From contig JADLBV010000123.1 of NCBI GenBank assembly GCA_020847545.1, positions 1-60,480 on the forward strand: a stretch of 60,480 nucleotides of DNA, written 5' to 3'. This document shows, one piece after another, positions 9,808-15,734 of this stretch. Positions within the stretch are counted from its first letter, which is position 1. Every line of letters begins with the position of its first letter. The DNA is from Phycisphaerales bacterium (lineage in GTDB: Bacteria; Planctomycetota; Phycisphaerae; Tepidisphaerales; Tepidisphaeraceae). The position numbers and the translations under genes are program-made. Under the pieces are notes generated by a model. The model did no database searches. It was given only the letters and a program-made list of their open reading frames with translations, and was not told the origin of the DNA.

Positions 9808-10965
9808 ATGACCAACATCGTCATCGTCGCCGCCAAACGCACGCCTCAGGGACGTTTTTTAGGATCGCTCGCCAAACGCTCGGCCGTCGATCTGGCCGTC
9901 CACGCCTCCCGCGCAACCATGCAAAGCGCCTCCATCCAACCCGAATGGATCGACCAGGTCATCCTCGGCAACGTCCTCTCCGCCGGGCTGGGGATGAACA
10001 TTGCCCGACAAACGGCAGTCAAACTCCAACTGCCGATCACCGTCCCCGCCTTCGTCGTCAACATGATGTGCGCATCGGGCCTGCAGGCGGTTCATCTGGC
10101 CGCCCAGGCGATCCGCGCCGGCGATGCACGCTGCATCCTCTGCGGCGGAAGTGAATCGATGTCCAACGCCCCTTATCTTCTGGACCGCGCCCGCAACGGT
10201 TACAAACTCGGCGACGGCCTCCTGATCGACACCATCCTCCGCGATGGCCTGACCGATCCCTTCGGCCATGGCCACATGGGCAACACCGCCGAAAATCTGG
10301 CCGACCGCTACGACATCACCCGCCAACAACAGGATGCCTTCTCCGCCCGCAGCCAGCAGCGCTATGGCCAGGCCCACACCGCCGGCCGATTCACCGATGA
10401 AATCGCTCCGCTAGACGACCTCTCGGCCGATGAACACCCACGCCCCGACACCACCGAACAAAAACTCTCCACCCTCAAACCCGCCTTCAATCCCCAGGGA
10501 ACCGTCACCGCCGGCAACGCCTCCGGCATCAACGACGGCGCCGCCATGCTCATCCTCTGCGACGGCAACTTCGCCAAAGAACACAACCTCAAACCCATGG
10601 CCGAACTGCTGGGCGAATCCGCCATCGGCTGCGACCCCGCACTGATGGGCCTTGGCCCCGTCCACGCCACCAACGCCCTGTGCAAAAAACTCAAAATCTC
10701 CCCCGCCGATTTCGACACCATCGAACTGAACGAAGCCTTCGCCGCCCAGGCGCTGGCCTGCATCCGCGAATTGAAACTCGATGAATCCCGCGTCAACTCC
10801 GACGGCGGCGCCATCGCCCTCGGCCACCCCATCGGCGCCAGCGGCGCCCGTCTGATCGTCCACCTGGCCCATTCCATCGCCAGTGGCCGCGCTCAATCCT
10901 CATTGGCGACACTATGCGTCGGTGCCGGCATGGGCATCGCCGCCGCCCTGCGCCCCGCAAAGTAA
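9808..10965 (+). CDS. Acetyl-CoA C-acetyltransferase (thiolase)
   Basis: Thiolase of 385 residues. The acyl-accepting Cys is residue 88 in VVNMMCASGLQA; the family motif NEAFAAQ, the GGAIALGHPIGASGAR block (His 340) and the second catalytic Cys 370 in TLCVGAGMG are all intact. It would cleave acetoacetyl-CoA into two acetyl-CoA or run the reverse condensation. Third gene of the SDR / CoA-transferase operon, with a 15-nt gap. All three steps together could interconvert 3-hydroxybutyrate, acetoacetate and acetyl-CoA. The stop lies 4 bp from the end of the convergent M48-like gene. Confidence 0.95.
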   Translation: MTNIVIVAAKRTPQGRFLGSLAKRSAVDLAVHASRATMQSASIQPEWIDQVILGNVLSAGLGMNIARQTAVKLQLPITVPAFVVNMMCASGLQAVHLAAQAIRAGDARCILCGGSESMSNAPYLLDRARNGYKLGDGLLIDTILRDGLTDPFGHGHMGNTAENLADRYDITRQQQDAFSARSQQRYGQAHTAGRFTDEIAPLDDLSADEHPRPDTTEQKLSTLKPAFNPQGTVTAGNASGINDGAAMLILCDGNFAKEHNLKPMAELLGESAIGCDPALMGLGPVHATNALCKKLKISPADFDTIELNEAFAAQALACIRELKLDESRVNSDGGAIALGHPIGASGARLIVHLAHSIASGRAQSSLATLCVGAGMGIAAALRPAK

Positions 10966-10969
10966 TCCC

Positions 10970-12073
10970 CTACCCCTCGGACGAAATAAACCACGCATGA
11001 GGATGTCCCAGCAGATTGGATGGGCTTCGGCAGGTCAAATTCGGAACCCACATCGACAGCCGGCAAACCGATGCGTACATCCGACCGGCCGAAAACCAGC
11101 GTGGATTGGGACGCACCAGATTTCGCCCGATCCATTCCCGCCGGGATTTGGTCGACAGTTCACCAAGCCGTCGTTTCTCAAACCACGCCGTCAATGGTTG
11201 CGGCAACAGCATCCACACGCTCAACCCCAAACCCATTTGCAAAATGTAAATCGGCAAACCAAGATTTTCCGCCGGCAATATCCAATTTAATCCCACCACC
11301 CCCGCCATCACCCAAACCCATGTCAACAAAACCGTCAGCAAAGGAAGCCGCTTGGCACCGCGCTGTTGCGCCCGTGTGATCAATTCGCGCAACAGTTCAT
11401 CACTGGCCAGCATCGCCGCCGCCCGACTGACCATCAGCACCTGACTTTTACCCAGCCCCAACATCGTCACGTTGAACTGTCGCAGGTCCGGCGCGGTGTA
11501 AATTCTCACCTCAACCGGCAACCTCGGTTCCAATTCCAAAATCCGCTCCACCTGCGGTCCGTGATGTTCCACGTGGAACAATCCCGTCGGCAATAGCCGA
11601 GCCTCAAAGCAGGCCGTCGCCAATAACAAAACCAGGAAAATTGCCCCCCACACCACCGGCCAAACCACCCCAAAATTGACCTGAAATGCCAGCATCAACC
11701 CGCACCCAACCAAAAACATCACCGCCTGCTGTCGCACCCCGGCCAGCCAATCAAGACCCCAGGCGCGGATTCCCTGTTTGGCCAATCCAAATTGCCGGTC
11801 CAACAGATATCCAAACCACAAATCGAGTGGAAAATTGATCGCCGCATATGCCGCGAACAAACCCGCCAGCCAAACCATCCCCAACCAGAATGGCATGGGC
11901 GACGCAAGTTGATGCGCGATCCAACGGTTGTCCAGCAAACCGCCCAGCAGCGCCAAATTCAGCAGCACACTGGCGATGGCCCCCCTGCGGCAATGGGTGC
12001 GATAGGTCCGCGCCAGGGTGTTTCGCCCCATCGGATCGACGACAGCCGGTGATGAGATGTCGCCAGTATTCAT
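10970..12073 (-). CDS. M48/Ste24-like membrane protein lacking the HExxH zinc site (pseudo-protease)
   Basis: A 367-residue membrane protein with six or more hydrophobic segments. It resembles CaaX-protease/Ste24 (peptidase M48): residues about 75-110 (FPLDLWFGYLLDRQFGLAKQGIRAWGLDWL) match the Ste24 pattern of a hydrophobic segment, then E/D-x-x-FG-x-x-KQ-T and a following D-x-x-K region, and about residues 205-250 (FNVTMLGLGKSQVLMVSRAAAML, then SDELLRELITRAQQRG) match the region leading into the catalytic helix. Where active members have HExxH, this protein reads LLRELITRAQQRG, so no zinc ligands are visible. It begins 15 nt after metH on the same strand and probably shares its transcript. 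The family call is by motif pattern and should be tested by profile search. Confidence 0.6.
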   Translation of the reverse strand: MNTGDISSPAVVDPMGRNTLARTYRTHCRRGAIASVLLNLALLGGLLDNRWIAHQLASPMPFWLGMVWLAGLFAAYAAINFPLDLWFGYLLDRQFGLAKQGIRAWGLDWLAGVRQQAVMFLVGCGLMLAFQVNFGVVWPVVWGAIFLVLLLATACFEARLLPTGLFHVEHHGPQVERILELEPRLPVEVRIYTAPDLRQFNVTMLGLGKSQVLMVSRAAAMLASDELLRELITRAQQRGAKRLPLLTVLLTWVWVMAGVVGLNWILPAENLGLPIYILQMGLGLSVWMLLPQPLTAWFEKRRLGELSTKSRREWIGRNLVRPNPRWFSAGRMYASVCRLSMWVPNLTCRSPSNLLGHPHAWFISSEG

Positions 12074-12088
12074 GATTCAAAGGCCGAA

Positions 12089-15000
12089 TCAGGTATCAAA
12101 ATACTTCGCCTGCGGATGATGGACAACGATTGCATCCGTGGATTGTTCGGGGATCAGCATCCAGTTTTCACTCAGGGTCACGCCGATCTCGCCTGGGTTG
12201 AGCAGCTCGGCGATCTTGGAGCGATCCTCCAGGTTCGGGCAGGCGCCATACCCAAAACTGTATCGCGACCCGCGATATCCCTGCTGGAACAGGTCATGGA
12301 CATTGGCCGCGTCTTCGGCCCCGAATCCCAGTTCCTGCCTCATGCGCTTGTGCCACAACTCGGCCAATCCTTCCGCGCTTTCGACGCTGAACCCATGCAG
12401 ATAAAGATATTGCTGATACTGGTTGGACTTGAACAGCTCCGCCGTCAGATCGGATGCGCGGCTGCCCACGGTGACCAGTTGCACGCCCAGCACATCAAAT
12501 TCGCCACTGTCGTTCGAGCGGAAAAAGTCCGCGATGCACAGCCGACGACGCCCTTCCTGACGTGGGAAGCTGAACCGCAGCCGCTCCCGCGCCCCGGCCG
12601 GCAGTTTTCGACCACCATCGCCCGACCCTGCCACCTTGCCGGCAAATTCATCGACATGATACACCACCAGATCATCCCCCATCGCCTGCACGGGAAAATA
12701 TCCGTAGACGGCGCGGGGTGTCAGCAGTTTTTCGGCAATCGCTCGTTGTTGCAATTCGGCAAAGACCGGACGGGCCTTTTCGTCAATTGCACGCTCATAG
12801 TCGGCCGTGCTCATCCCTTTTTTGCGAAAACCCCACTGCCCGATGAAGAGCGCGTTTTCATTGATGTAGGCGAACACCTGCTCGGCTGGAATCGCATCGG
12901 CCACCCGACGCCCCCAGAACGGCGGCAGCGGAACCGGATTGTCCTTCGCCACGTCGCTGGTCCCGCTGACGGCCGTCGCGGCCGGCTTGACCGCCTTGGC
13001 CGACAGCTCATCGCGCCGGCGCATGTCCTCCTGATTCTGATCCCACAGCGCCTTGCCTTCGCCGGCGATGATCTTCTCCATCGTCGCAAGCCCTTCAAAC
13101 GCATCCTTGCAATAAAAGAGCATCCCGCCATACAGGCCGGCCAGGTCCTTGGTCGCATAATGCCGCGTCAGCGCCGCCCCGCCCAGCAGCAGCGGCACTT
13201 TCACCTCATGGGCGTTCATCTCCTGAACATTTTCCTTCATCACCGCCACGCTCTTGACCAGCAGCCCGCTCATGCCGATCGCATCGGCCTGTTTTTCCTT
13301 GTACGCCTTGAGAATGTCATTGACCGGCTGCTTGATCCCCAGGTTGTAGACCGTGTAGCCGTTGTTGGTCAGGATGATGTCCACCAGATTCTTGCCGATG
13401 TCGTGGACATCCCCCTTGACTGTCGCCAGCACGATCTTCCCCTTGCTTGAACCTTCCACCTTTTCCATCAGCGGTTCCAGATGCGTCACGGCCGCCTTCA
13501 TCGTCTCGGCGCTTTGCAACACAAACGGCAACTGCATCTGCCCGCTGCCGAACAGATCCCCCACCACCTTCATCCCATCGAGCAGAATATCGTTGATGAT
13601 CTGCAACGGCTTGTAGGTCTTGAGCGCCTCATCCAGATGAACCGTCAAATCCCGTTTTTCGCCGTCGATGATGTGGCGTTTGAGCGTCTCCTCGATGGTG
13701 AGCTGCTCAACCGGTTTGTCGGTCGCGGCCGATTCATCCTCGGTGAACAGGCCCACAAAATAGGTCAACGGATCAAATCCTTCGCGCCGGCGGTCATAAA
13801 TCAAATCGAGCGCGGCATCCCATTTGACCGGATCAATCTTGTTTTTCGGAAGGATTTTGCTGGCGTGAACAATCGCCGCCGTCAAACCCGCCTCGCGCAG
13901 CTCATTCAAAAAGACGCTGTTCAACACCACCCGCGCATCGGGTTTGAGTCCGAAACTGACGTTGGACAACCCCACCACCGTATGACATTTGGGTAGTTCG
14001 CTGCTGATTCGCCGGGTTCCTTCGATCGTCTCCAGCGCGTTTCGTCGATCCTCCTCGATCCCCGTCGAGATCGGCAGCACCAGCGGATCGAACATCAAAT
14101 CCTCATCGCGCAAGCCATATTTATTCACCGACAAATCGCGGATGCGCTTGGCAATCGAAATTTTCCGGTCGGCCGTGCGCGCCATGGCGTTTTGCTTGTC
14201 CTCATCAATCGTCCCCGCCACCACGGCCGCCCCGTATTTTTTCGCCAGGCCGCAGATGCGCTCGATGCGCTCCTCCCCATCCTCCAGGTTCATCGAATTG
14301 AGAATGCACCGCCCGCCGGCCAGTTTTAATCCTTCCTCCATGACGGCCGGATCGGTGCTGTCCAACATAAAGGGCGCGCGAACCTGACGGACATATCGGC
14401 TGATCACCTCGTGCATGTCCTTCACGCCGTCGCGCCCCACGAAATCGACGCACACATCCAACACATGCGACCCATCGCGCACTTCATCGCGCGCCATCGA
14501 CACCAAACCATCCCAGTCGTTGGCCTCCAGCAGCCGTTTGAACTTTCTGGAACCGTTGGTGTTCGTTCGCTCGGCCACGATCAGATAACTCTTGTCCTGT
14601 CGAATATCCTCCGCGCTGTACATTGACGAGATTTGCGGTTTGACCTCTGGTTCGCGCGGCTTGATCGCCGAATTCGGACTGCCATAACCAACTTTTTTAA
14701 CCAGTGCTTCCAAATGCGCCGGCGTCGTCCCGCAGCACCCGCCGACGATGTTGACCCCGTAATCGCGCACAAACCGCACCATCGCCGATGCGAAATCCTC
14801 CGGCGTCAGCGGATAGGATGCCTTCCCATCCACGATCACCGGCAATCCCGCATTGGGCAACACGCTCACCATCCTCGGCCAATGGTGCGACAAATACTGC
14901 ACATGTTCCCCCATCTCGGTCGGCCCGGTGGCGCAGTTCAATCCCAGACAATCCACCTGCTCATAAGGCAAAATCGCCGCCGTCACGGCCGAGATGTCCG

Positions 15001-15601
15001 AACCCACCAGCATCGTCCCAAATGACTCAATCGTCACCTGCACCATCAACGGGACCTTCACGCCGACCTGTGTCATCGCATCGGTCGCCCCGTTGATCGC
15101 CGCCTTGGTCAAGAGCAAATCCTGATTGGTTTCAATCAGCAGCACATCCACCCCGCCGTCGATCAACCCGCGACATTGCTCGGTATAACTCTCCACCAGC
15201 GCATCAAACCCGATGTTCCCCAGCGTCGGCAATTTGGTTCCCGGCCCGATCGATCCGATCACATATCGCGGGCGCTCCTTCGTCTCATATTTGTCACACG
15301 CCCGCCGGGCAACCTGCGCGGCCATCCTGTTCAGTTCATACGCCTGATTCGCGATGTCGAATTCCGACAGCACCACCTTGTTGGCGCCAAACGTATCGGT
15401 CTCCACCGCGTCGCAACCGGCGCGCAAAAAACTCTCGTGAATCTCCTGAATCACATCCGGCCGGGTCTGAACCAGTATCTCCGAACAATTCTCCAGCCCC
15501 AGATAATCCTTGTTCAGATCCAGGTCATAAGTATGAATGCTCGTCCCCATCGCCCCATCGAACACCACCACGCGCTGCTTGGCCAATTCCAGAAAATTCA
15601 T
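12089..15601 (-). CDS. metH: Cobalamin-dependent methionine synthase
   Basis: Transfers a methyl group from methyltetrahydrofolate to homocysteine through B12. All modules are present in order: homocysteine-binding barrel starting FDGAMGTSIH with zinc cysteines in LNCATG and GGCCGTTPAHL; pterin-binding barrel (VAERTNTNGSRKFKRLL, LDVCVDFVGRDG); cap domain (ETMKAAVTHLEPLM); B12-binding fold with GDVHDIGKNLVDIIL (axial His) and SGLLVKS; and the C-terminal reactivation domain (RRRLCIADFF, YGACPNLEDR). From the ATG at 15601 it has 1170 residues, close to the usual 1200-1230. The frame is open 39 codons further upstream, but that stretch contains a palindromic repeat and no homology. The gene is probably first in a transcript with the M48-like gene. 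Confidence 0.97.
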   Translation of the reverse strand: MNFLELAKQRVVVFDGAMGTSIHTYDLDLNKDYLGLENCSEILVQTRPDVIQEIHESFLRAGCDAVETDTFGANKVVLSEFDIANQAYELNRMAAQVARRACDKYETKERPRYVIGSIGPGTKLPTLGNIGFDALVESYTEQCRGLIDGGVDVLLIETNQDLLLTKAAINGATDAMTQVGVKVPLMVQVTIESFGTMLVGSDISAVTAAILPYEQVDCLGLNCATGPTEMGEHVQYLSHHWPRMVSVLPNAGLPVIVDGKASYPLTPEDFASAMVRFVRDYGVNIVGGCCGTTPAHLEALVKKVGYGSPNSAIKPREPEVKPQISSMYSAEDIRQDKSYLIVAERTNTNGSRKFKRLLEANDWDGLVSMARDEVRDGSHVLDVCVDFVGRDGVKDMHEVISRYVRQVRAPFMLDSTDPAVMEEGLKLAGGRCILNSMNLEDGEERIERICGLAKKYGAAVVAGTIDEDKQNAMARTADRKISIAKRIRDLSVNKYGLRDEDLMFDPLVLPISTGIEEDRRNALETIEGTRRISSELPKCHTVVGLSNVSFGLKPDARVVLNSVFLNELREAGLTAAIVHASKILPKNKIDPVKWDAALDLIYDRRREGFDPLTYFVGLFTEDESAATDKPVEQLTIEETLKRHIIDGEKRDLTVHLDEALKTYKPLQIINDILLDGMKVVGDLFGSGQMQLPFVLQSAETMKAAVTHLEPLMEKVEGSSKGKIVLATVKGDVHDIGKNLVDIILTNNGYTVYNLGIKQPVNDILKAYKEKQADAIGMSGLLVKSVAVMKENVQEMNAHEVKVPLLLGGAALTRHYATKDLAGLYGGMLFYCKDAFEGLATMEKIIAGEGKALWDQNQEDMRRRDELSAKAVKPAATAVSGTSDVAKDNPVPLPPFWGRRVADAIPAEQVFAYINENALFIGQWGFRKKGMSTADYERAIDEKARPVFAELQQRAIAEKLLTPRAVYGYFPVQAMGDDLVVYHVDEFAGKVAGSGDGGRKLPAGARERLRFSFPRQEGRRRLCIADFFRSNDSGEFDVLGVQLVTVGSRASDLTAELFKSNQYQQYLYLHGFSVESAEGLAELWHKRMRQELGFGAEDAANVHDLFQQGYRGSRYSFGYGACPNLEDRSKIAELLNPGEIGVTLSENWMLIPEQSTDAIVVHHPQAKYFDT

Positions 15602-15632
15602 CCGCTGTGACACATCAACCTCGCTCTTGTGG

Positions 15633-15650
15633 GGTGGGCCTTGGCCCACC
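15633..15650. repeat. Palindromic element GGTGGGCC-TT-GGCCCACC
   Basis: Perfect 8-bp arms with a 2-nt centre, located about 32 nt upstream of the metH start on the untranslated side. In the metH mRNA it would fold as a short GC hairpin. The 2-nt loop is too small for a normal RNA hairpin, so it would open to a shorter stem or act as a DNA palindrome. No second copy was seen in the window. Confidence 0.6.
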
Positions 15651-15676
15651 ACTCGTCCATCCATCCATCCGGATAT

Positions 15677-15705
15677 ATTGTTGGATGATCCCTGCCGCGG
15701 GTCAA
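15677..15705 (-). promoter_or_regulatory. Putative metH promoter
   Basis: On the minus strand, TTGACC (15705-15700), a 17-bp spacer and AACAAT (15682-15677) form a plausible sigma70-type promoter that would start metH transcription near 15670, leaving a leader of about 70 nt containing the palindrome at 15633-15650. The -10 box matches only 4 of 6 positions, so the call is tentative. No B12 riboswitch could be recognised in a leader this short. Confidence 0.4.
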
Positions 15706-15714
15706 GCTGAATTC

Positions 15715-15734
15715 TCAAATCATTTATGATTTGA
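15715..15734. promoter_or_regulatory. Perfect palindrome, likely operator of the GntR/LacI-type regulator
   Basis: TCAAATCAT and its exact reverse complement ATGATTTGA are separated by TT. The right arm runs into a consensus -35 box (TTGACA, 15731-15736). A 9-bp-arm palindrome overlapping the -35 element of a regulator's own promoter is the classic arrangement for autorepression. The assignment to the regulator starting at 15797 rests on position only. Confidence 0.6.

Follow-up and report, generated by a model that had tools for sequence, protein, structure and literature searches.

What is a membrane protein of a zinc protease family for, once its zinc site is gone? The question is raised by a gene encoding 367 amino acids (10970..12073, minus strand) in a stretch of 60,480 nucleotides, here called the window, whose source organism is an uncultured planctomycete. 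The product is described below as a Ste24/M48-type membrane pseudopeptidase with a fused C-terminal peptide. A first-pass annotation had read the gene as a dead protease and proposed that it serves as a binder or scaffold. That interpretation is supported in part, and a binding or scaffolding role of the window protein is plausible; the fused peptide and a pattern extending across the family had been overlooked.

The window protein is an M48/Ste24 homologue by descent, as had been suspected. Residues 31-154 (11612..11983, minus strand) match the Peptidase_M48_N membrane helices of Pfam (PF16491, E 2.7e-6) at 27.8 bits, above the cut-off of 27, and the Ste24-type FG-x-x-KQ loop noticed earlier is present in the alignment as RQFGLAKQG at residues 93-101, a stretch common to relatives. 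PDB sequence searches returned no relative. An AlphaFold2 model calculated from five sequences is of modest confidence (mean pLDDT 61.9, pTM 0.54); residues 317-367 have pLDDT below 50, and the C-terminal tail is not placed by structure prediction. When this model was compared with the PDB using Foldseek, ranks 1-9 were all Ste24p/ZMPSTE24 (best E 1.8e-3, probability 1.00; none reaches 1e-3). Using VIA-align, Z was 12.2 for ZMPSTE24 (4aw6_B; 288 residues, rmsd 5.2), 6.7 for HtpX and 5.9 for the first non-metallopeptidase, and note that chance can give helical models Z values of this size. As a control, those five sequences were also used to model the HDxxH relative G010 (mean pLDDT 62.2), and its best matches were ZMPSTE24/Ste24 (E 3.3e-5 with Foldseek, Z 13.2 with VIA-align). 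The unrelated fold that the annotation had named as evidence against its reading was not seen, though with a model of the confidence given above. Fold evidence of this kind lends support to the sequence evidence but cannot stand alone.

In the alignment, the HExxH columns of the window protein are occupied by RAQQR (residues 234-238; 11360..11374, minus strand), corresponding to changes of His to Arg, Glu to Ala and His to Arg. These columns fall inside ELITRAQQR, the stretch previously said to have replaced HExxH. The junction between residues 301 and 302 (11168..11173, minus strand) lacks approximately 29 residues including the third zinc ligand, which lies in EYQAD in the relatives G005 and G010. 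An orthologue from the same genus (G001) has RAMRR in the HExxH columns, and the third-ligand segment (ExxxD) is deleted in both proteins. As read from the alignment, the window protein is without any zinc ligand and is predicted to be catalytically dead. M48 proteases in general have not been lost by the organism, because four further M48 genes with HExxH and ExxxD motifs are kept in the same genome. Comparison of orthologues at the HExxH position, which had been suggested as a check against local decay, gave a divided answer: the motif is retained in the same family as HEMGH in G005 and HDLGH in G010, and the nearest orthologue is dead like the window protein. G005, which also has EYQAD, is apparently an active enzyme. 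G010 (L020:1254-1781), with HDLGH for HExxH and EYQAD kept, is a natural half-step.

A lost zinc site, a deletion and a fusion through a lost stop codon are also what might be expected of a decaying pseudogene that is open by chance, and we therefore give the evidence on selection in full. The G001 orthologue is 72% identical to the window protein, of the same length, full length and gap-free. For the 367 gap-free codons shared by G000 and G001, dN is 0.186 and dS is 0.663 (dN/dS 0.281), and the tail (residues 332-367) has a dN/dS of 0.142. For comparison, the ratio is 0.058 over the final 494 codons of the adjacent metH and 0.168 in the neighboring thiolase gene. Neutral evolution was simulated by placing the observed 257 nucleotide differences at random in 2000 simulated genes. 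None of the 2000 was free of stop codons, and amino-acid changes averaged 159.8 (minimum 139) versus 101 observed. The gene is under purifying selection despite its lost zinc site, which supports the earlier view that a dead protease has been kept intact. With the nearest orthologue also dead and selection visible, local decay does not account for the state of the gene. Two independent genomes carry the reading frame open and at full length, so that decay, already contradicted by the dN/dS of 0.28 and the simulations, is scarcely credible. An RNA element at the 3' end, suspected from conservation in two frames, was also considered and rejected, as pN/pS for residues 332-367 is 0.18 in the annotated frame and 1.35 in the open alternative frame, and the stretch is thus coding. 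An Rfam scan of 10700-12300 gave three sub-threshold matches and nothing above threshold.

The annotation had placed emphasis on metH (cobalamin-dependent methionine synthase; 12089..15718, minus strand), which ends 15 nt upstream on the same strand. The spacing was found as described: the low end of metH is 12089, the pseudopeptidase gene starts at 12073, and the gap between them (12074..12088, minus strand) is 15 nt. To judge from this gap, the two genes are probably on one transcript. Because the G001 gene also lies 15 nt behind metH, one could imagine that the gene is co-transcribed with metH and that its product serves as a scaffold in methionine or B12 metabolism. However, metH adjoins the family gene in 2 of 17 compared loci, both from genomes of the window's genus, and in none of the other 15, and we regard this role as very improbable. 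The upstream neighbor is thus a trait of one genus, and the emphasis on metH does not carry over to the family. Neighboring genes vary from locus to locus across the family; since they differ and metH is genus-specific, genomic context gives no lead to a further partner. On the other side, a thiolase gene on the plus strand (window 10883-10969) stops 4 nt short of the low end of the pseudopeptidase gene, in a convergent and nearly gapless arrangement.

The last ~40 residues of the window protein matched G010 DNA just behind the stop codon of its M48-like gene, where a separate 40-codon ORF starts directly after that stop. Residues ~328-367 of the window protein are, by sequence comparison, a second conserved small protein and not M48. 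The fused homologue of this ~40-residue protein (residues 328-367; 10973..11092, minus strand) was matched with E 5.6e-7 by a single sequence, and the small-protein profile matches the window at 10976-11080 with E 8.1e-19, a value obtained with the window row included in the profile. A separate small ORF lies directly behind the M48-like gene in all five split loci (G010, G005, G012, G011 and G152), with a 4-nt overlap in three, direct adjacency in one and an 11-nt gap in one. When 298 class genomes were searched with the small protein, seven matches were strong and one was weak. A profile built from the strong ones, applied to 397 class genomes, recovered the same seven plus nine weak matches and no additional strong match, and on 392 phylum genomes it found none besides those already known.

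The separate small ORFs are real genes, because synonymous differences exceed non-synonymous differences in 10 of 10 pairs. For the G152-G011 pair the values are 0.775 and 0.177, and identity is 32/40 in the small protein versus 104/342 in the M48 part. When profiles were compared, the split proteins matched both fused tails of the window's genus with a score of 42.0 (E 7.7e-8); none of 100 column shuffles scored as high, the best reaching 9.4. Three of the small proteins were searched against Pfam at E up to 10 and matched 0 families each. Read by eye, the small proteins have no obvious signal peptide and no prenylation box. DUF2256, considered as a possible relative for its GRPxxW motif and photolyase neighborhood, was rejected for want of a Pfam match and of conserved cysteines. 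Separate production of the small protein from an internal start at Met332 is not favored: Met332 falls at a different alignment position from the start codons of the split ORFs, and no clear ribosome-binding site was seen by eye in the bases before it. Weak small-ORF matches were not counted, namely the nine from the 397 class genomes (E 2e-4 to 1e-2), G685 and G067. A scan found no M48-like frame beside the nine or G685; for G067 (L014/L018) the absence was judged by eye from its frames. A further member (L022/G016:C352) is on a contig that ends after the membrane part, and its upstream gene is of the same family as that of G010.

Searching with the M48 part identified four additional loci with a dead M48 domain and the C-terminus LLGRAVHCNxGRPxLWxxLP. 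A profile made from these loci brought their number in 377 class genomes to nine and, in 117 phylum genomes, added two from outside the class. There are thus at least 11 distant relatives in which a related tail (GRAVHCNxGRPxLWxxLP) is fused to a dead M48 domain; three of six scanned against PF16491 were above the cut-off. All family counts should be considered lower bounds, as genomes were sampled and in most of them part of the first-look candidates was scored. The distant fused tails matched the split small proteins with a score of 28.3 (E 2.4e-5; 0 of 100 shuffles as high, best shuffle 9.6). Compared directly with the window's tails, they gave a score equaled by 7 of 100 shuffles, which is not significant, and the two groups of tails are linked only through the split proteins.

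A tree was calculated from 20 rows with the zinc-site columns excluded; G014, G016, G476 and G462 are not in it. The window protein and G001 group with G005 (HEMGH) and G010 (HDLGH) at 100/100, in agreement with the M48/Ste24-like assignment. Three split members with RExxH group together at 100/99, and nine distant fused members at 100/100. AU tests rejected a single clade of all fused proteins (p 1.9e-6) and a single clade of all dead proteins (p 4e-4). Note that the tree contains long branches and that the AU test is subject to the same model bias. The topology implies at least two fusions, from split ancestors, and at least two losses of the zinc site.

We compared the states of the active site across the family, omitting G016 from the counts because its M48 part is cut by the contig end. 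The first zinc His is Arg in 16/16 dead rows and is kept in 7/7 others. By motif, the dead rows comprise the window (RAQQR), G001 (RAMRR), three with RExxH and eleven with RR. The ExxxD glutamate is lost in all 14 dead rows that retain the segment, and the aspartate is kept in the same 14. An invariant Arg and a retained aspartate would suit a dead site that gained other catalytic or ligand-binding chemistry, such as an Arg-lined pocket for a lipid or anion. Against this, the second HExxH position is A, E or R depending on the dead clade, and the whole ExxxD segment is absent from the window protein, so that no common new active site is visible, and we consider such a gain improbable. G008, G014, G040, G049, G209, G350 and G541 are ordinary M48 proteins with HExxH.

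Outside the zinc site, the equivalent of the substrate-binding edge strand was located by alignment at residues 197-208 of the window protein (LRQFNVTMLGLG; 11450..11485, minus strand). Of the ordinary M48 proteins, 5/5 have NA in this strand, and 15 of the 18 peptide-linked rows have GG; the window protein and G001 have NVT, not GG. GG at the edge strand is therefore a frequent trait of the peptide-linked family and not a defining one. A plug-like HP motif is kept in 13/16 dead rows and absent from the window protein, G001 and G006. With its NVT edge strand and lost HP motif, the window protein represents a more derived end of the family.

From these data we infer that the dead Ste24/M48 membrane pseudopeptidase, together with its dedicated peptide, acts by binding, as a holder, adaptor or scaffold, a reading to which we give an even chance. 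In the ancestor, an M48 protein and a small protein would have worked as a pair, with the peptide placed within or at the substrate cleft (edge strand and active-site groove) as substrate or ligand. Pairing does not require death, because G005 and G010 keep the zinc site, or nearly so, along with the small ORF. The edge-strand changes common to active and dead peptide-linked members would fit a cleft shaped for one peptide. With the zinc site gone and Arg in place of the first His, the peptide might be held rather than cut. Fusion would then fix the pair in one chain, the former cleft holding the peptide in trans in split members and in cis in fused ones, and a holder, adaptor or scaffold embedded in the membrane would result. 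Against the cleft-holding step, the window protein and G001 lack the GG edge strand and the plug HP motif.

Alternatively, the M48-like protein may process or export the small protein where it is active, and the dead fused forms may keep only membrane delivery or anchoring, the peptide acting on another partner and not in the cleft. G005, an apparently active enzyme (HEMGH, EYQAD) with the small ORF directly behind it, fits such an arrangement, and the conserved tail residues (GRP, W, LP) could face a partner. However, the majority of members, from at least two lineages, are dead, which rules out processing as the function that was kept, and the small proteins show neither of the export or modification signals sought by eye. 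We consider this alternative rather unlikely. Returning to the reading in which the peptide is bound, a bolder version is that Planctomycetota at least twice converted an intramembrane protease of the Ste24 type into a receptor for a peptide, exchanging zinc for Arg and tethering in the cleft a former substrate, once a separate ~40-residue protein of the next gene, as a two-part membrane switch or scaffold. This version is tentative and we lean against it; if true, the receptor states surviving today would be active/split, dead/split and dead/fused.

Among the closest known systems, the window protein resembles Ste24/ZMPSTE24, the M48A membrane zinc metalloproteases (PDB 4IL3, 4AW6), in its Peptidase_M48_N helices, edge strand, predicted helix order and best fold match; unlike them it lacks HExxH and the third zinc ligand and has a foreign C-terminal peptide. 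BepA, a soluble periplasmic M48 protein of E. coli, has the M48 fold that is predicted for the window protein. According to excerpts of the two reports, substrate binding by its edge strand N105-A106-F107 serves both proteolysis and a chaperone-like function (PMC8423444), and its plug H246-P247 closes the active site (PMC7950410). BepA differs from the window protein in retaining its zinc site, in not being embedded in the membrane and in having TPR repeats. A Ste24 protein can also act without its HExxH: ZMPSTE24 H335A still restricts entry of pseudotyped particles, as stated in an excerpt of PMC8915953. That antiviral protein is an engineered mutant of an active enzyme, unlike the window family, and has no fused peptide. 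Natural dead metallopeptidases are retained as binding or assembly factors, and in plant FtsHi4 REAAV replaces HExxH with the same His to Arg change (both from excerpts of PMC11266112); FtsHi4, unlike the window family, belongs to M41 and not M48. In the main text of that 2024 pseudopeptidase review (PMC11266112), the terms 'M48', 'Ste24' and 'HtpX' are absent, and no dead M48 family with such a peptide partner was found in the literature searched (pseudopeptidase/M48). Natural dead metallopeptidases and a Ste24 protein acting without HExxH are therefore already known, and a dead M48 family with a peptide partner is new within that literature.

Pseudopeptidases are already on record for several metallopeptidase families. 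Here, one family holds active, half-lost and dead states together with a split or fused partner peptide, and for this reason the transition from protease to binder is testable with natural intermediates. An otherwise 'hypothetical' protein acquires candidates for both its partner and its binding site, and a small ORF of ~40 codons that matches no Pfam family is brought to notice.

A light or redox neighborhood, with photolyase, renalase-like FAD proteins and SDR-DUF2867, was considered for the distant fused clade and set aside, as it is confined to a few loci; two loci of other classes, read by eye, have no such neighbors. Renalase-like FAD amine oxidoreductases lie near three distant fused members (L085, L087 and L088); two of these loci also have a photolyase or photolyase-like domain and one has a fasciclin protein, which may amount to a light/redox neighborhood. 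G331 (L089:7495-10131, minus strand) has a single 878-aa open frame in which an NAD(P)-binding DUF2867 protein precedes a dead M48 domain and tail, a possible triple fusion.
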